Shown piece by piece: positions 26,223-34,625 of a stretch of DNA of 40,581 bases. Source of the DNA: Desulfonatronum sp. (lineage in GTDB: Bacteria; Desulfobacterota; Desulfovibrionia; Desulfovibrionales; Desulfonatronaceae). A program made the translations under genes and the position numbers. The notes beneath the pieces were generated by a model. The model had not been told where the DNA came from and ran no database searches. It saw only the letters and a list, made by a program, of their open reading frames with translations. Positions within the stretch are counted from its first letter, which is position 1. Every line of letters starts with the position of its first letter. Where the stretch lies: contig DSBL01000030.1 in NCBI GenBank assembly GCA_011049455.1, positions 1 through 40,581 of the forward strand, written 5' to 3'.

Positions 26223-28124
26223 ATGCTCAAGCCCCTGGAACCGGAGTGTTTCGACGTCATCGTGGTCGGCGCGGGACACGCAGGGTGCGAGGCGGCCATG
26301 GCCACGGCCCGCCTGGGCCTGACCACCCTGCTTTTGACCATTAACATCGACCGCATCGGTCATCTTTCCTGCAACCCGGCCATCGGCGGTCTGGCCAAGG
26401 GCCATCTGGTCAAGGAAATCGACGCCCTGGGCGGATGCATGGGGATCTGGGCGGACCAGGCCGGCATCCAGTTTCGCATCCTGAACACCCGCAAGGGACC
26501 GGCCGTACGCGCCACCCGAGCCCAGATCGACCGATCCGCCTACATGCTTGTGGTCCAGCGGGACATCTTTGCCCAGAACAATCTTTGGGTACGTCAGGAC
26601 ATGGCCGAGGACCTCCTCCAGGATAACAACCGGGTTGCCGGAATACGCACCCGGATCGGTGAAACAATCCAGTCCCGATGCGTTCTGTTAACCACAGGCA
26701 CGTTCCTGCAGGGGCTGATCCACATCGGGCTGGAACATTTCAGCGGCGGCCGCCTGGGCGACCCTCCCGCCGTGGGGCTTTCCGCGAGTCTAGCCCGCAT
26801 CGGCCTGCGTCTGGGACGGTTGAAAACAGGTACCGTGCCCCGGGTGCGCAAGGACAGCGTGGACTTCAAATCCATGTCCATCCAATCCGGTGACAACCCG
26901 CCCAAGCCTTTCAGCTTCCACTCGCCGGGCATCAGCCTGCCCCAGGTTCCCTGCCACTTGACCTACACCAACGATCAGACCCATGCCGTCATTCGCTCCG
27001 GCCTGGACCGCTCGCCTTTGTTCACCGGGATAATTCAGGGCACAGGAGCCAGGTATTGTCCGTCCATCGAGGACAAAATCGCCCGCTTTCCGGACAAGGA
27101 ACGGCATCAGGTTTTTGTGGAACCCGAGGGGCTGAATCATCCCGAGGTCTATCCCAACGGTCTGCCCACCAGCCTGCCCTTGGACGTGCAGCTCGCCATG
27201 CTGCGCACCATTGCGGGCCTGGAAAAGACGCAAATTGTTCGTCCTGGCTATGCCATAGAATACGACTTCGTGAATCCGGAACAGCTGTTGCCCACACTGG
27301 AAGCCAAGGTTTTGCCCGGTTTATATTTGGCAGGTCAGATCAACGGCACCTCGGGATACGAGGAGGCCGCGGGACAGGGACTCTGGGCGGCTCTGAACAT
27401 TGCCGCGGTCCTGCGCGGGACCAAGCCGTTTTTACCCGGCCGGGACCAGGCCTACCTGGCCGTGCTTGTGGACGATCTGGTGACCAAGGGCACCAACGAA
27501 CCTTACCGCATGTTCACTTCACGGGCCGAACACCGGCTCTTGCTGCGCGAGGGCAACGCAGACCATCGGTTGACTCCTGTTGGTCGGGAAAGGGGGTTGG
27601 TCAACGACGAACAGTGGCAGGCGTTCATGCGCAAGCAACAGATGCTTCAGACACTGCGCCAGGGATTGCAATCCATTGCCATCCGCCCGGATGCGACAAC
27701 CAGAGACATCCTGGAATCACTGCAAACGCCAGTTCCGGGAAAATCCATCACCCTGGAGGAACTGGCGCGCCGCCCTGAACTGCGCCTCCATGATCTGCAC
27801 GCGTTCTGGCCTATGCTTGCAGAAGCCGAGGAAGACCTCCTCAACGAGGCGGAAAATCAAATCAAGTACCATGGCTACCTGATCCGGCAACAGGAGCTGG
27901 CCGACCAAGCCCAATCCATGGAAAATATCCCCTTGCCTTCGGACCTGGATTATGATCAAGTTCATGGATTGTCCCGGGAAATCAGGGAAAAATTGACCCG
28001 CATCAAGCCCTTGAACCTCGGGCAGGCAGGGCGTATTTCCGGGGTGACCCCGGCCGCCCTGGTCTGTTTGCGAATTCATCTGCGTAAAACAGATGGAATA
28101 CGTTCAAAATCTGGTGCGGAATAG
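26223..28124 (+). CDS. mnmG: tRNA uridine-34 5-carboxymethylaminomethyl modification enzyme MnmG
   Basis: FAD-dependent enzyme of 633 residues (MnmG/GidA) that, with MnmE, modifies the wobble uridine of several tRNAs. The FAD-binding [10 protein letters not shown] is at residues 16-25; [33 protein letters not shown] and [10 protein letters not shown] are family signatures, and the C-terminal domain ends with SREIREKL and a TPAAL motif. Length and order are typical. No MnmE gene is nearby. The gene starts 29 bases after the M20 gene. Confidence 0.96.
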
Positions 28125-28144: not shown

Positions 28145-28924
28145 ATGAACCTGCTTTTGGTGCGGAGACTGGGCCGATGGGGCATTGATCGTTCCCAGAG
28201 TTTTACCAGGATGTTTCACATCCTCTGCCAGGCCTGCGCCGCTGCAATGCGACTGTCTTTTTTCAAACCGGCAGTGGCCCTGGTCCTGGTCCGCCAGATC
28301 TACTTCACGGCCGTCCAGCCCCTGTCCATCATTTTTGTCGCATCCCTGATCATGGGCTCGGTAACTGTCCACTATTTACTGCAATTGCTTTTAGGCCTCG
28401 GGGCATATGAACAAATAGGCGCCTTCCTGATCCGGGTCATGCTCCACGAAATCGCGCCCATCACCTGCTCCCTGATCATTCTTTTACGCTCCGGAACGGC
28501 CGTGCTGACCGAAGTCGCTCTGATGAAAATCAACGGGGAAATTGATACTCTGCACAGCCTGAACATCGCCATGGACGACTATGTCTTCATGCCCCGGGTC
28601 ATGGCATTCGCCTTGGCCGGACCCTGCCTGAGCATTTGCTTCTGCATGATCGCCCTGCTCGGCGGGTTCATGACCCTGGGTTATTGGCACGACATCACCT
28701 TTGCCAACTACAAGGACAGATTGTTCAATGCCCTGGAAATCAAGGATCTGATAATATTGATAACAAAATCCATGGTCATGTCCGTTGCGGCATGCCTGGT
28801 GGCTCTGCAACGAGGATTCAGCGTAAACCGGGCCTTTACGGAAGTTCCCATCCGTCTGATTCAGGGCATGATGCAGGCCATCACCTTGCTGATCGCCGTG
28901 GAAATCCTGTTCATCATTTTCTAA
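28145..28924 (+). CDS. mlaE: MlaE-family permease of a lipid-transport ABC system
   Basis: Inner-membrane permease of 259 residues. About five hydrophobic segments, with the family's RQIYFTAVQPLSIIFVASLI near residue 50, the LLRSGTAVLTEVALMKINGE region (the EIDAL-like motif follows as EIDTLHSL) and a C-terminal hydrophobic helix. MlaE with MlaF and the MCE protein MlaD moves phospholipids between the two membranes in Gram-negatives. GGAG lies about 8 bases before ATG 28145. First gene of a five-gene run with spacing of 0-15 bases. Confidence 0.9.
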   Translation: MNLLLVRRLGRWGIDRSQSFTRMFHILCQACAAAMRLSFFKPAVALVLVRQIYFTAVQPLSIIFVASLIMGSVTVHYLLQLLLGLGAYEQIGAFLIRVMLHEIAPITCSLIILLRSGTAVLTEVALMKINGEIDTLHSLNIAMDDYVFMPRVMAFALAGPCLSICFCMIALLGGFMTLGYWHDITFANYKDRLFNALEIKDLIILITKSMVMSVAACLVALQRGFSVNRAFTEVPIRLIQGMMQAITLLIAVEILFIIF

Positions 28925-28929
28925 ACGCA

Positions 28930-29445
28930 ATGCAGACTCTCTCCATCTTTTCCCTGACCTCGACCCATGAACATCTTTTGTTGAGCTCTCCGGATGAGAC
29001 AACCATCGCCCGCTTGAAAATAATGGTCGTTCAATCAGATTTTCATGTCGGCATGATCAACGACGACTTGCCCTTGTTGGCCAATCTCAACGCCCTGGAA
29101 AACATCGCTCTGGGAAGCATGTACCACAAAAACATGTCCCTGGAAGCATGCCGCCGAAAACTCAAGCCGGCCATCCATCTCTTGGGCCTTGAGCAAGTCA
29201 TGGATCAACGCCAGCAGTACCTGAACAGATCGCAACGCCTGAAAGTACAGTTGCTGCGCTGTCTGGCCGATGATTGCGGCTTTGTGCTGCTGGATTCTCC
29301 GCCACGCTCGGATTGCGACATCCTGGATCGGGCCTTGACCACGCTGGACGCGGGCGTTTTTCTATGGATATGCTGCTTGTCAAGCGAACTGGATGCCTAT
29401 ACTTCCTTGGGCTACGCAATCATGGATCTGGGGCTGTTATCATGA
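28930..29445 (+). CDS. Degenerate MlaF-like ABC ATPase subunit lacking Walker A
   Basis: Protein of 171 residues in the position of MlaF, between mlaE and mlaD. From residue 46 on it follows an ABC ATPase: LPLLANLNALENIAL (Q-loop region), a helical part ending LLGLEQVMDQRQQY, LNRSQRLKVQLLRCLADD where LSGGQ is expected (98-102), and FVLLDSPP (118-125) where Walker B LLLDEP is expected, with Glu replaced by Ser. No GxxxxGKS/T motif exists; the N-terminal part is about 45 residues instead of about 80 and no other frame supplies one. It should not hydrolyse ATP. The frame is intact, and stop and start overlap with mlaD (ATGA), so it seems maintained rather than decayed. Confidence 0.75.
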   Translation: MQTLSIFSLTSTHEHLLLSSPDETTIARLKIMVVQSDFHVGMINDDLPLLANLNALENIALGSMYHKNMSLEACRRKLKPAIHLLGLEQVMDQRQQYLNRSQRLKVQLLRCLADDCGFVLLDSPPRSDCDILDRALTTLDAGVFLWICCLSSELDAYTSLGYAIMDLGLLS

Positions 29446-30425
29446 ATCTGAACCAGCAAAAAATGGAAATCAAGGTCGGGCTTTTCCTGCTGCTGATGCT
29501 GCTCAGCTTGGCCGCTATTATTGTCTATGTAGGATTCAAAAAGGATCTTTTCGCCGAACGCATCAAGTACACCGTGGTCAGCAAGACGGGTGAAAAAATT
29601 GAACCCGGCATGCCGGTCAGGCTTTCAGGATTCACCATTGGACAGGTGTCCGAGGTGACCCTGGATCAGGTCGATTTGGTGCGTATCACGATCAAGGTTC
29701 TGAAACGCTACCAGCAATGGTTCAAGGAAGACTCCAGAATCATACTGGAACAGGAAGGGGTCATTGGCAACAGTTTTCTGAAACTGATCCCGGGCTCGGA
29801 TGCCACCCCCGTGCTGGAAGAGGGAGCAGTCATTCATTTGGACAAAATCGGCGGGATAAACGAATTGATCCAGGAAATGCAGCCGGTGATCGAGGCGTTG
29901 CGGGCCATCGTGATCAATGTCTGGGACTTGACCGACTACCTGGTGGACAGTCAGGGTCCCGTGCGCAAAATACTGGTCAACGCCGAAACCATGACCGAGC
30001 GTTTGCTCTCTGAGCAGGGTCTGGTTCACTATTTGACCGAGGATCCCCGGCCCATCGCCCACGTGGATCAACTCCTGGCAAGGACGGACAAGGCTATGGA
30101 AAGCGCCGACATCCTGCTGCAAAGCGTCACCCGGCGCGTAGAGGACGTGGAACCTCTCCAGGAGGAAATCACCACCGCGGTGCGTGAAACCAGGCTTCTC
30201 ATTGAAGAATTCCACGGCATCCGCCAGGATCTTACACCGTTGATGAACAATATCACTGCAATCAGCGAAGAAATCAAAACCGCAAGCCGGGATCTTGTCA
30301 GCCTGCGCCGCCAGGGAGAATACAGCCTGCGTCTGGGCACCGATCTGTTGCTGCGTCTCAAGGAAACCTGGCCCCTCTCCCGGAGGGAAGCTCCGGACAT
30401 CGAAACCAGCTATCCCTGGCCCTAG
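29442..30425 (+). CDS. mlaD: MlaD-like MCE-domain protein
   Basis: Protein of 327 residues with an N-terminal membrane helix (about 10-29, KVGLFLLLMLLSLAAIIVYVGF) and a MCE domain (PGMPVRLSGFTIGQVSEVTL, then GNSFLKLIPGS) at about 40-120. The remaining 200 residues are helical, with many Leu/Glu heptads, typical of longer MCE proteins that form tunnels between membranes. Its start ATG 29442 overlaps the stop of the degenerate ATPase gene. Confidence 0.9.
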   Translation: MNLNQQKMEIKVGLFLLLMLLSLAAIIVYVGFKKDLFAERIKYTVVSKTGEKIEPGMPVRLSGFTIGQVSEVTLDQVDLVRITIKVLKRYQQWFKEDSRIILEQEGVIGNSFLKLIPGSDATPVLEEGAVIHLDKIGGINELIQEMQPVIEALRAIVINVWDLTDYLVDSQGPVRKILVNAETMTERLLSEQGLVHYLTEDPRPIAHVDQLLARTDKAMESADILLQSVTRRVEDVEPLQEEITTAVRETRLLIEEFHGIRQDLTPLMNNITAISEEIKTASRDLVSLRRQGEYSLRLGTDLLLRLKETWPLSRREAPDIETSYPWP

Positions 30426-30438
30426 CAGGGGCATGACC

Positions 30439-31158
30439 ATGCATTATTTACTCCATTGCCTGACACTGTTCATCGTGTTCTGCACATTGACCTGTGCCTG
30501 CGCCCCTTCCGGCGCCCGATCGGTTTATCCCGCGCCCGATATCTTGCGCATGGCCGAACCCCAGCGACACGAATTCGTGCAACTTTTTTTGCAGGGGCGA
30601 TGGTGCGAAGCCCGCAGCATGTTTGAACGCAGCACCGAGAGCTACCTGATGCAGGATGATTTCTGCTCGGCGGCACAAAACAACATCGTGGCCTGGAAGC
30701 TCAAGCAATACATCGGCATCAGCGACCCGCAGCTTCTGGAAAAGGCCGGTCTGCTCCTGCAAACGGGCATGGATTGCCCTGATGCGATTTTGCCGGACCA
30801 AGGGGCGGAAGGTTCTCCGCCGGACACAGTGACGCAAAAGGACCGCGGGTATCGTGAACTTCTTGATGACGGCCGATTCGACCTTTTGTCCGCCCGCCTG
30901 CGTGCGGAACGCGACCAGCTTTACGCCTCGGTCTATGGACGCAAGGCCGCACGGGCCGCCAGCATCGCCGGCCAGCTGGAACAGGCCGAACAGCTTGTTC
31001 GCCAAACCAGGAGCCTGGATGCACGACAGGGGTGGATCGTCTTTCTGATCCAGGACTGGAAGATGCTCTACGCACTGACCCAGGACCAGGCAGCGAAAGT
31101 CGAAATCCAGGAACGCATCGAACAGTTACAGGATCTCCTCCAGCCATGTCCTTTCTGA
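30439..31158 (+). CDS. Predicted lipoprotein in mla-like operon
   Basis: Protein of 239 residues, N-terminal hydrophobic stretch followed by Cys residues (TCACAPSG) that fit a lipobox loosely. The rest is helical and charged, with repeat-like EQAEQLVRQ and AKVEIQERIEQLQDLL at the end. No family recognised. AGGGG lies 8 bases before ATG 30439, preferred over ATG 30433. It begins 13 bases after mlaD and overlaps the next gene by 13 bases. Its position suggests an outer-membrane or periplasmic partner of the MCE protein, but there is no direct evidence. Confidence 0.6.
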   Translation: MHYLLHCLTLFIVFCTLTCACAPSGARSVYPAPDILRMAEPQRHEFVQLFLQGRWCEARSMFERSTESYLMQDDFCSAAQNNIVAWKLKQYIGISDPQLLEKAGLLLQTGMDCPDAILPDQGAEGSPPDTVTQKDRGYRELLDDGRFDLLSARLRAERDQLYASVYGRKAARAASIAGQLEQAEQLVRQTRSLDARQGWIVFLIQDWKMLYALTQDQAAKVEIQERIEQLQDLLQPCPF

Positions 31159-32192
31159 AAGGAATCTCCGCCCGTCTGCATTTCATCAGCCAGGCTGATT
31201 ACTACTATTTCCGGAACTGGGAATACAGCCTTAGCGAAGCCCAAAGGCCCCTGACCATCACTTTGGGCCTGATTCTGCTTTTTTCCATCGGATACCTGTC
31301 ATACTTTCTGTACCGCAAATGGTTTGTCGGGAAAAAGGACATCTTTTCCACAACCGATTCGGCAAGGATTTTCGCCATTTTCGAGCAGGCCGTGGCTGAA
31401 CGGGCAACCCACGAAATCCAGTTTCACGGCGAGGCCGGGCAGCGCACGATTTTTTTCTGCTCCCCCGTGGGGCTCGAATCTCCAAGGACAATCGTGCTGG
31501 AGGTTTCCGGCTTCATCCATCCACAGGAAAGCTGGGTTGGACGCGGGGTGCGATGCCATTTCAAACTCATCGCCGATAAAAATAAGCAAAAATGGTCATT
31601 CTACCATTTTTTTTCAACCATAACCGGCATCCGTCAGGAGCGAGGCCTTGAGTTCATCCTCGTGAACCTGCCCGGTCAGCTGGAATCCAAACAGCGCCGG
31701 CAGCATCTGCGACTTGATCCGCCCAGCGAAGATATTCCCCTTTTGGAGATCTGGCCGGAGACATTGGGCAATCTTGACCATCCCGACAAAACTTCCCCGA
31801 TGCTGTCCTTCATCCATGGCCGTCTGGACAATCCCCTGAACGTGCTCAACGTCTCCGGAGGGGGTCTGCTTTTGGAGGTTCGCCCGTCGGCGCGGGACAT
31901 CCCGAAAAACGCTCTGGACAAGGGACAACGGGCGTTCTTGAACATGGGATTGCGTGACCCTGAACAGGGCAGGATCACGGAATATTTGTTGCTGGCCCAG
32001 ATTCGCAACGTCTTCATCGACCCGGTCACGGGAAATCGTCTCGTCGGGCTGTCCTTTACCGCGCTACAGGAACAGGACGGCAATGCGGAAGAGAACCGCT
32101 GGACAGCTTTGCACGGAAAAGGAGTCGAAGAAATCGAGGACTGGGTGTTCAAAAGGCATCTGCAACTCTATCGAAAGAAGGGCATTGTTTAA
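31146..32192 (+). CDS. Membrane protein with C-terminal PilZ domain
   Basis: Protein of 348 residues. One membrane helix at about 38-55 (LTITLGLILLFSIGYLSYFL). The cytoplasmic part has a YcgR-like N-terminal module (about 70-175) and a PilZ domain: RRQHLRL (RxxxR motif, about residue 180) and NVSGGG (NxSxxG) near 235. It is predicted to bind c-di-GMP. The start ATG 31146 lies inside the 3' end of the lipoprotein gene, showing coupling to the lipid-transport operon. Confidence 0.78.
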   Translation: MSFLKGISARLHFISQADYYYFRNWEYSLSEAQRPLTITLGLILLFSIGYLSYFLYRKWFVGKKDIFSTTDSARIFAIFEQAVAERATHEIQFHGEAGQRTIFFCSPVGLESPRTIVLEVSGFIHPQESWVGRGVRCHFKLIADKNKQKWSFYHFFSTITGIRQERGLEFILVNLPGQLESKQRRQHLRLDPPSEDIPLLEIWPETLGNLDHPDKTSPMLSFIHGRLDNPLNVLNVSGGGLLLEVRPSARDIPKNALDKGQRAFLNMGLRDPEQGRITEYLLLAQIRNVFIDPVTGNRLVGLSFTALQEQDGNAEENRWTALHGKGVEEIEDWVFKRHLQLYRKKGIV

Positions 32193-32259: not shown

Positions 32260-33117
32260 TTGGAAGAGGGCAATGAAGGTACACTCTGGAGCATGTTTAA
32301 ACGAATCTTTCGCAGGGAGGATTCCTCGAAGATCGAGGACATCATCAAGGCTGCCAGCGAAGAGGGGGAAATTCGCAAGGAAGAAGTCTCCATCGTGCTC
32401 AAGGTTCTGCGTTTAGGACGAAAACAGGTCCATGAAATCATGATTCCGCGCACGGACATCGTCTGCGCCGAAATCGAAAGCCGGGTCGAAGACATCGTGG
32501 ACATCATCATCACCCACGGCCACAGCCGGATACCCGTATTCAAGGACAACAAGGATAATATCGTGGGCATTATCCACGCCAAGGACTTGTTGCGTCTGGC
32601 GCTCAAACAATCCCTGGATTGTTCGTCCGACGCGCAGGAAGCTTTGTTGGCGAACATCATCCGCGAACCATTATTTATTCCGGACACAAAAAACGTCATG
32701 GAAATGCTTCTGGAATTCCAAAGCAGAAAAAACCACCTAGCCATTGCCCTGGATGAATACGGTGGAACGTCCGGTCTGCTGACCTTTGAAGACGTGCTGG
32801 AGGAAATCGTCGGGGACATCGAAGATGAATACGACTTTCCCCAACCCGACGACATCCAGGTCCAAGCGGACGGCAATCTGCTCATCTCCGGCAGGACCGA
32901 ATTGAAAGAGCTTCAAGAGCACATGCATGTCAACCTGGAAAACGACCAGGTGGACACCATCGGCGGCTATCTCTCGCAACTTGCAGGAAGGGTGCCCCGC
33001 AAGGGCGATGCCTTCGATATCCAGGGTCACCGTTTCACCATCCTGGAAGCCGACCAAAAAAAAGTCCGTTGGATCCGAGTCCAGCTTCTCGTTGATCCAG
33101 CCCCACTGGAACAGTGA
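32260..33117 (+). CDS. CBS-domain protein of the CorC/HlyC (YbeX) family
   Basis: Protein of 285 residues. Two CBS repeats (about 60-185; MIPRTDIV, HSRIPVF, GIIHAKDLL, then HLAIALDEYGGTSGLLTFEDVLEEIVGDI) and a C-terminal CorC/HlyC domain (DTIGGYLSQLAGRVPRKGD). No membrane segments, so it is the YbeX-like cytosolic type rather than a DUF21 transporter. It starts at TTG 32260 with AGGAGG 5 bases upstream. Its stop overlaps the GTG of lnt, the same pairing as ybeX-lnt in E. coli. Confidence 0.9.
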   Translation: MEEGNEGTLWSMFKRIFRREDSSKIEDIIKAASEEGEIRKEEVSIVLKVLRLGRKQVHEIMIPRTDIVCAEIESRVEDIVDIIITHGHSRIPVFKDNKDNIVGIIHAKDLLRLALKQSLDCSSDAQEALLANIIREPLFIPDTKNVMEMLLEFQSRKNHLAIALDEYGGTSGLLTFEDVLEEIVGDIEDEYDFPQPDDIQVQADGNLLISGRTELKELQEHMHVNLENDQVDTIGGYLSQLAGRVPRKGDAFDIQGHRFTILEADQKKVRWIRVQLLVDPAPLEQ

Positions 33118-34625
33118 ACATCTTTGCCCTGATCATCGCCTTGTTGGGGGCTTGGTTCGGCCACGCCAACCTGATCGTCCATATTCCTGGAGCCGTGTTT
33201 CTCTTCCCCGCTGTCCTTGTCTGGATGGGCCTGCATGCCGACTCAACCCGACAGGCTTTGCGGGAAGGTTGGATCTGCGGAAGCCTCTGCTTTTCAGCAT
33301 GTCTGTATTGGGTATTCACCCCGGTGCATGCGCATGGAAATATTCCCTGGCCACTGGCCCTGCCCTGTCCAATTCTTCTGGGCATGTACCTGGGCCTGTA
33401 TGCGAGTGTTTTTACCGCGCTCGTTCATTGGATGCGCTCACGGCTCCCGTCACCCCTGCTGGCCATCACCGCCGGTCTGCTCTGGGGCAGTCTGGAAATG
33501 GCCCAGGGAACTCTTTTCACCGGCTTCTCCTGGCTGACGCTATCAGTGGCCATGGCTCCTTGGCCGCTGACGATTCAAGGGCTGGCCTATGTCGGAGAAT
33601 ACTGGCTGTCCGCCGTGTTCGCCACCTGCACTGTCTGGTTGGTCCTGGGCAAAAATGATCGTCTTTGTCTGGTTCTCGGCCTTGTTTTCAGTACATCCCT
33701 TTTGCTTTGGGGCAACCTTGTCCTGAACAGCCCCTTGGCTGACGCCCCTCATGTCCGCGTCTCCTTAATCCAGGGCAATATTGATCAAAACCAAAAATGG
33801 GACCAAGCCTATCAAGAAGCCACCGTCCATGAATACATACGGCTCACCCGTATGGAGCTCATCCCCGAACCGGACTTGGTCGTCTGGCCGGAAACAGCCA
33901 TGCCGTTCTACCTGCAGGAGGATAATGCACTGGCACGGCAGGTTCGCGGCTTTGTCCGCGACCATCGCATTCCACTGCTCACTGGCACGCCCCGCTATGA
34001 TGTAAATGCCTCCAGCGGGGATATTGGGTACGCCAATTCCGCGTTTTTACTCAATCCAAACGGCGAAACCGTCGCGTTCTACGACAAGGAGCACTTGGTT
34101 CCGTTTGGAGAATACGTCCCCCTGGGCAAATTTTTCCCTTTTGTGAACAGGCTTGCGCCGGGAGATGGAGAGTTTATTCCCGGGAACAATCCAAATCCCC
34201 TGAATTGGGAGGAACTTGCCCTGGGCATGCTTATTTGCTATGAAGTAATTTTTTCGAAACTCAGCCAGGAGAGGGTTCAAGCCGGGGCCAATTTGTTGGT
34301 GAACATCAGCAATGACGCCTGGTTCGGATATTCCTCCGCCCCCCGCCAACATCTTCATCAAGCGGTTTTGCGAGCTGTGGAACAAGGGAGATTCCTCGTC
34401 CGATCTACAAATACGGGAATTACAGCGGTCATAGATCCTCGCGGCAGGCGCCTGGAAACCGGCACTTTGTTTCAAAAATTAACCCTGACTTATTCGGACG
34501 TTCGTCTTTTTCAAGACCTGACATTTTTTCACCAATACCATACCGCTCTTCAATTCGCTCTGCCCCTGGCAACCTGTTGCCTGTTACTGGGCGTAAAATT
34601 GCTTCGCCCGAGATACGCGATTTGA
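33114..34625 (+). CDS. lnt: Apolipoprotein N-acyltransferase
   Basis: Inner-membrane enzyme of 503 residues that adds the third acyl chain to lipoproteins. Several N-terminal membrane helices, then a nitrilase-like domain with catalytic Glu260 (WPETAMPF), Lys325 (YDKEHLVPFGE) and Cys375 (ICYEVIF), then SNDAWFG and RSTNTGITAVIDPRG, all as in Lnt, and a final membrane helix. The start is GTG 33114, overlapping the corC stop by GTGA. Confidence 0.95.
   Translation: MNIFALIIALLGAWFGHANLIVHIPGAVFLFPAVLVWMGLHADSTRQALREGWICGSLCFSACLYWVFTPVHAHGNIPWPLALPCPILLGMYLGLYASVFTALVHWMRSRLPSPLLAITAGLLWGSLEMAQGTLFTGFSWLTLSVAMAPWPLTIQGLAYVGEYWLSAVFATCTVWLVLGKNDRLCLVLGLVFSTSLLLWGNLVLNSPLADAPHVRVSLIQGNIDQNQKWDQAYQEATVHEYIRLTRMELIPEPDLVVWPETAMPFYLQEDNALARQVRGFVRDHRIPLLTGTPRYDVNASSGDIGYANSAFLLNPNGETVAFYDKEHLVPFGEYVPLGKFFPFVNRLAPGDGEFIPGNNPNPLNWEELALGMLICYEVIFSKLSQERVQAGANLLVNISNDAWFGYSSAPRQHLHQAVLRAVEQGRFLVRSTNTGITAVIDPRGRRLETGTLFQKLTLTYSDVRLFQDLTFFHQYHTALQFALPLATCCLLLGVKLLRPRYAI

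Follow-up and report, generated by a model that had tools for sequence, protein, structure and literature searches.

A P-loop-less MlaF relative in Desulfovibrionales and graded degeneration of ATPase subunits in a clade of MlaE transporters

Whether Mla-type transporters depend on ATP, for what purpose, and which way they carry phospholipids is disputed. For the canonical Mla system, lipid passage from MlaD to MlaC is spontaneous and is prevented by ATP hydrolysis; apo MlaE is open toward MlaD in the known structures (PMC10212509). In ABC transporters, the permease inserts its coupling helix into a cleft of the nucleotide-binding domain (NBD); in MlaE, this helix links TM2 to TM3 (PMC7790496, PMC7367683). 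The E. coli ATPase subunit MlaF has in addition a C-terminal extension that is needed for subunit pairing and function (PMC7367683). Among the open-licence papers searched, none describes an MlaF that lacks the P-loop.

The psiF locus

We studied a 40,581-nucleotide stretch of DNA (the window) from a Desulfonatronum draft genome (2.87 Mb, 164 contigs; order Desulfovibrionales, phylum Thermodesulfobacteriota). Between its mlaE and mlaD lies an open reading frame in the slot of mlaF, as already noted in the initial annotation, which we label psiF. The genes and the segment considered are, in their order along the locus:

26223-28124: mnmG, upstream of mlaE
28145..28924, + strand: mlaE, permease of a divergent clade (PF02405 and tree), coupling-helix segment altered but kept
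28930..29445, + strand: psiF, pseudo-ATPase of 171 aa in the slot of MlaF, every catalytic ABC motif gone
29059..29130, + strand: psiF residues 44-67, turn of the Q-loop together with the beginning of the helical subdomain, block of highest conservation and presumed MlaE docking patch
29442..30425, + strand: mlaD, long form with one TM, MCE domain and long C-terminal helical part (PF02470, TIGR04430)
30439..31158, + strand: conserved lipoprotein with all-helical repeat fold (synteny, model)
31146-32192: 348-aa one-TM protein, after the lipoprotein gene
32260-33117: corC-like gene, after the gene of the 348-aa protein
33114-34625: lnt, after the corC-like gene

Only 5 bases separate mlaE (end 28924) from psiF (start 28930), and the psiF stop codon TGA overlaps the mlaD ATG as ATGA (29442-29445), i.e., the coupling to mlaD is as first described. 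The permease neighbour belongs to the MlaE family (PF02405, 143 bits vs. cut-off 22.5, E 1.3e-41) and the MlaD neighbour to the MCE family (PF02470, 49.3 bits vs. cut-off 25.1, E 6e-13), the latter also matching NCBIfam TIGR04430 (1.7e-15) and having its TM at residues 7-36. Genes for MlaA, MlaB and MlaC are absent from the operon.

The lipoprotein has a Cys21 that is invariant in the alignment and an AF2 model of all-helical repeats (pLDDT 89.6); it matches no Pfam family and shows only weak TPR/SNAP-like similarities. Its gene follows mlaD in every psiF locus read, and the protein is probably an outer-membrane partner. Lipoproteins of a similar kind are also found after mlaD in three related loci (L185-L187). 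The 348-aa protein is syntenic with psiF in most loci and has no match in Pfam or PDB; its assignment as PilZ-type was dropped for lack of support in either database.

Fold, motifs and conservation of psiF

At the sequence level, the evidence for homology is weak from the psiF protein alone and clear for the family. As a single sequence, psiF scores below the cut-off of PF00005 (20.1 vs. 25 bits, E=0.001), and it matches FtsE (3.3e-7) and GlcV (6.5e-8) in NCBIfam and again GlcV (5e-8) in a phmmer search of the PDB. Comparing profiles with hhalign, the 22-member psiF family matches six canonical MlaF sequences with a probability of 97.1% (E 5.9e-11), which bears out the proposed relationship to MlaF, and 12 of the intermediate NBDs described below with 98.7% (E 3.7e-16). 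The AlphaFold model based on the 22 sequences (pLDDT 93.0, pTM 0.88) shows an ABC ATPase fold: ABC NBDs top the Foldseek list (best E 2.7e-8), and VIA-align superimposes the model on CysA with Z 15.2 and on the MlaF of MlaFEDB (6xbd_I, PDB 6XBD) with Z 14.2 (rmsd 3.5 over 165 residues). Profiles and predicted structure thus identify psiF as truly related to the Mla ATPase, i.e., as a member of the ABC fold superfamily and the MlaF lineage.

As reference for reading the catalytic motifs, we used an intact MlaF encoded on contig C14 of the window's genome. At the Walker A position, psiF reads SPDETTIA, which does not fit GxxxxGK[ST]. The Q-loop reads GMINDDL with the Gln lost; the signature reads LNRSQRLK in place of LSGG; Walker B reads FVLLDSP, without the catalytic Glu; and the H-switch region reads WICCLSS, without the His. 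The initially reported changes, i.e., LNRSQ for LSGGQ and DS for DE, are therefore those of the alignment. They extend to the orthologues: Walker A Lys, Q-loop Gln and H-switch His are each present in 0/22 psiF sequences vs. 8/8 canonical MlaF. The first signature Gly is retained in 1/22 and the second in 0/22, such that SGG is never found, while both glycines are present in 8/8 canonical sequences. For Walker B, Asp is kept in 4/22 and Glu in 1/22, again compared to 8/8 each.

With 171 residues, compared to about 250 in MlaF, psiF lacks the first strands, the whole antiparallel-beta (ABC-beta) subdomain and the C-terminal extension. In the model, the strand before the P-loop (E16-20) and the helix following it (H23-35) remain and the loop itself is gone, which refines the earlier statement that the P-loop is missing. 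The protein ends with the last core strand and helix (E163-166, H167-170), where MlaF continues into its extension. The model thus well supports a reduced ABC NBD that comprises the RecA-like core and the helical subdomain, and loss of catalysis with retention of the fold is likewise well supported. An ABC ATP site is composed of Walker A from one subunit and the signature from its partner. Since psiF has neither, a psiF:MlaF heterodimer would be left without any complete ATP site. We consider psiF very probably a non-catalytic structural subunit.

Next, we assessed how far the reduced form extends. A psiF profile search of 348 Desulfovibrionales genomes (threshold E<1e-20) finds P-loop-less psiF in 22, which cover 12 genera and 4 families of the order and include 7/8 genomes of the window's genus; the P-loop loss is thus conserved in relatives. 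Two weaker hits, at about 1e-14, are ordinary ABC ATPases. A profile of the psiF-clade MlaE recovers exactly these 22 of the 348 genomes at E<1e-87, i.e., this MlaE and psiF occur one-to-one; a 23rd genome (1.6e-36) has a canonical MlaE with an intact ATPase (L103). A contig search with a narrower alignment yielded two records from the same genus and one doubtful short match in Fervidobacterium.

All 13 relatives' loci that were read at length share the order mlaE, psiF, mlaD, lipoprotein, and nearly all of them have mnmG upstream and corC and lnt downstream. In one locus (L069, genome G337), mlaE and psiF are split by an unrelated inserted ORF (L069:6403-7791), which on visual inspection resembles a CarS-like/metallophosphoesterase fusion.

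The gene is under purifying selection: in pairwise comparisons psiF has dN/dS values of 0.16-0.47, and mlaE from the same pairs 0.12-0.21. Within psiF, residues 44-67 are the most conserved (mean 0.544 vs. 0.425 overall; no value as high arose in 20000 random draws), while the P-loop and signature positions are conserved below average. Trp146 and Arg110 are invariant in all 22 sequences, the former without counterpart in canonical MlaF. On the permease side, the MlaE segment matching the coupling helix is present in the psiF clade in a changed form that differs from that of canonical MlaE in the same genome. Because residues 44-67 are best conserved and the matching MlaE segment is kept, the likely retained function of psiF, judged from sequence and by analogy, is docking on MlaE through this patch.

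Explaining the reduced gene by a sequencing error, a frameshift or decay into a pseudogene is close to negligible in probability. A P-loop segment upstream of 29060 was looked for and none was found; there is no room for it, as mlaE is complete up to 28924, and the 22 genomes, several of them in one or few contigs, agree on the reduced form. Decay is incompatible with the intact frames in relatives, the dN/dS values and the confidently predicted fold.

Degenerate ATPase subunits in an MlaE superclade

To place psiF in a wider context, we searched 395 genomes of the phylum with the psiF-clade MlaE profile. Canonical MlaE proteins score at about 1e-31 to 1e-35, and about 60 intermediate matches range from roughly 1e-36 to 1e-58. 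All NBDs read beside intermediate MlaE are degenerate. In the MlaE tree, a superclade of 76 rows is split from canonical MlaE with support 100/100. Its NBDs are degenerate in 74 cases and complete in none, with SGG in 0/74, while those beside canonical MlaE are complete in 8/8.

The degree of degeneration varies. Forty superclade NBDs are close to full length, with between 0 and 4 of the six catalytic features still in place; 12 are shorter, with about 130-170 residues (L115-L117, L122, L123, L130, L131, L133, L134, L139, L144, L171). All motifs are gone from the short forms except the Walker B Asp, and a PLISN...NIAL patch is kept. In L119, L124, L129, L137, L145, L148, L150 and L154, Walker A is intact but the signature is altered (LSLG, ISIG, LSLE) and the H-switch His is missing. 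By their sequences, these NBDs may still bind ATP but could hardly hydrolyze it. A lone H-switch His occurs in L135 and is possibly an alignment accident. Complete NBD loss, considered for the MlaE of L114 and L167-L169, was rejected, as a degenerate NBD adjoins mlaD elsewhere in these genomes; the loci L140 and L142 end too early to judge the presence of an NBD.

Mapped on the MlaE tree, the Walker A state requires at least three changes. Removing the psiF rows leaves the superclade with its 100/100 support, but without them the 12 short forms have no firm place within it. In the full tree, a single origin of all short NBDs receives 100/99, but this 12-row group sits on a very long branch and we do not claim it. 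Within this large MlaE clade of the phylum, NBD degeneration is graded, and psiF stands at one end of it. As a side observation, a gene that by eye encodes a metallo-beta-lactamase-fold hydrolase adjoins mlaE in three superclade loci from different families (L016:2383-3198, L111:702-1487, L121:732-1490).

Proposed mechanism, alternatives and known systems

On balance, we lean towards psiF being a structural pseudo-ATPase that clamps MlaE within a transenvelope MCE conduit run without local ATP hydrolysis. Here, psiF would dock by its Q-loop/helical patch onto the coupling helices of the cognate MlaE and would perform no ABC-type ATP hydrolysis. It would keep the MlaE dimer together in a resting, periplasm-open state beneath the long MlaD needle, such that MlaE, psiF, MlaD and the lipoprotein may form a transenvelope lipid conduit with passive flow. 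Net flow would be set by the lipid gradient instead of ATP, probably from the inner to the outer membrane. With spontaneous passage and an open apo state in canonical Mla, a transporter with a hydrolysis-dead NBD should therefore stay open to MlaD and let lipids move down their gradient. A passive bridge is the simplest reading because of the open state without ATP, the long MlaD and the conserved helical-repeat lipoprotein; given that psiF is a non-catalytic structural subunit, we consider such a passive lipid conduit reasonably probable. Three observations weigh against this model. ATPase-dead E. coli MlaF (K47A, E170Q) fails complementation, i.e., a dead motor is not tolerated there (PMC7367683); psiF lacks the C-terminal extension that pairs the E. 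coli MlaF subunits; and MlaF-type ATPase genes, whose products could work in trans, are present in each of the 22 genomes.

The initial annotation had offered three readings, i.e., energy from an outside ATPase, operation without ATP hydrolysis, or a role of the protein as bridging subunit. We favor the last two in combination, because the docking patch is kept, all catalytic motifs are lost and no complete ATP site is available even with a partner. An outside ATPase is not favored; we consider it unlikely, though possible, that an intact MlaF of another Mla operon replaces psiF on MlaE, with psiF acting as placeholder, assembly factor or inhibitor that idles the permease. Candidates for action in trans are present: every one of the 22 psiF genomes contains 1-4 matches of MlaF type (E<1e-70), almost all in open frames, and a search for an active MlaF elsewhere in the window's genome finds two with complete motifs. 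MsmX is a shared ABC ATPase. A further precedent is MceG of mycobacteria (PMC9947336). However, both MlaF genes of the window's genome lie beside their own mlaE and mlaD, as does each canonical MlaF examined at gene level. Furthermore, psiF retains best just the docking patch and so should fill the site; only its replacement, not a heterodimer, would restore activity; and the psiF-linked MlaE and the genome's canonical MlaE differ in their coupling-helix segment.

It is improbable that another energy source, e.g., the proton motive force or a partner like the membrane protein encoded downstream, drives transport with psiF as a coupling adaptor. The one-TM protein of 348 aa follows in most loci, and for PqiABC, an MCE system without ATPase, passive transport, an unknown ATPase and the proton motive force have all been considered (PMC10897342). 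Against this, Pfam reveals no known ion-translocating domain among the proteins of the psiF operon, and MlaE shows no such sign. We give equally little credence to a new function of psiF unrelated to MlaE transport, e.g., as a regulator or scaffold via the newly invariant Trp146, Arg110 and Cys111. The invariance of Trp146 and Arg110 would fit such a role, but psiF strictly co-occurs with its MlaE, sits between mlaE and mlaD except for the one locus with the insertion, and conserves the coupling patch.

Extending the preferred clamp model from psiF to the whole branch is tentative, and here our doubts slightly prevail: the MlaE superclade of the Thermodesulfobacteriota may have given up ATP hydrolysis, with its NBD decaying stepwise and repeatedly to a clamp, which would yield ATP-free transenvelope phospholipid conduits and possibly a lipid route to the outer membrane. 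psiF-type loss is common to this whole transporter branch, which may thus move lipids between both membranes without burning ATP. The MlaE transporters form a natural series, under selection, in which the motor ranges from intact through impaired and dead to a remnant of about 150 residues. This makes the disputed role of ATP testable by comparing lipid flow in hydrolysis-incapable and hydrolyzing systems. Naming by gene order alone would call the dead subunits MlaF.

In heterodimeric ABC transporters of the TAP and CFTR type, a degenerate NBD stays in the complex and one complete composite site is kept. Catalytic residues are lost there as in psiF, while psiF lacks both site halves and a whole subdomain. 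PqiABC and LetAB (PMC10897342, PMC5561183) are likewise MCE needles without a cognate ATPase, and Pqi also has an outer-membrane lipoprotein, PqiC, of another fold than that of the psiF locus. Their inner-membrane part, in contrast, is PqiA/LetA instead of an ABC-type MlaE, and they have no NBD-fold subunit. E. coli MlaFEDB (PDB 6XBD, 6XGY, 7CH7) shares with the psiF locus MlaE, the MCE protein MlaD and an adjoining NBD-fold gene, and the predicted psiF fold matches its MlaF (6XBD, Z 14.2). psiF differs in lacking the catalytic motifs, the ABC-beta subdomain and the C-terminal extension, and its operon in having no MlaA, MlaB or MlaC gene and in encoding a long MlaD. The MlaEFD bridge of Veillonella parvula shares the minimal three-gene core and a long MlaD, whose proposed reach extends to the outer membrane (PMC10665443). 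Its mlaF closely resembles that of model diderms (PMC10665443), whereas psiF is dead and mlaD is followed by a helical lipoprotein.
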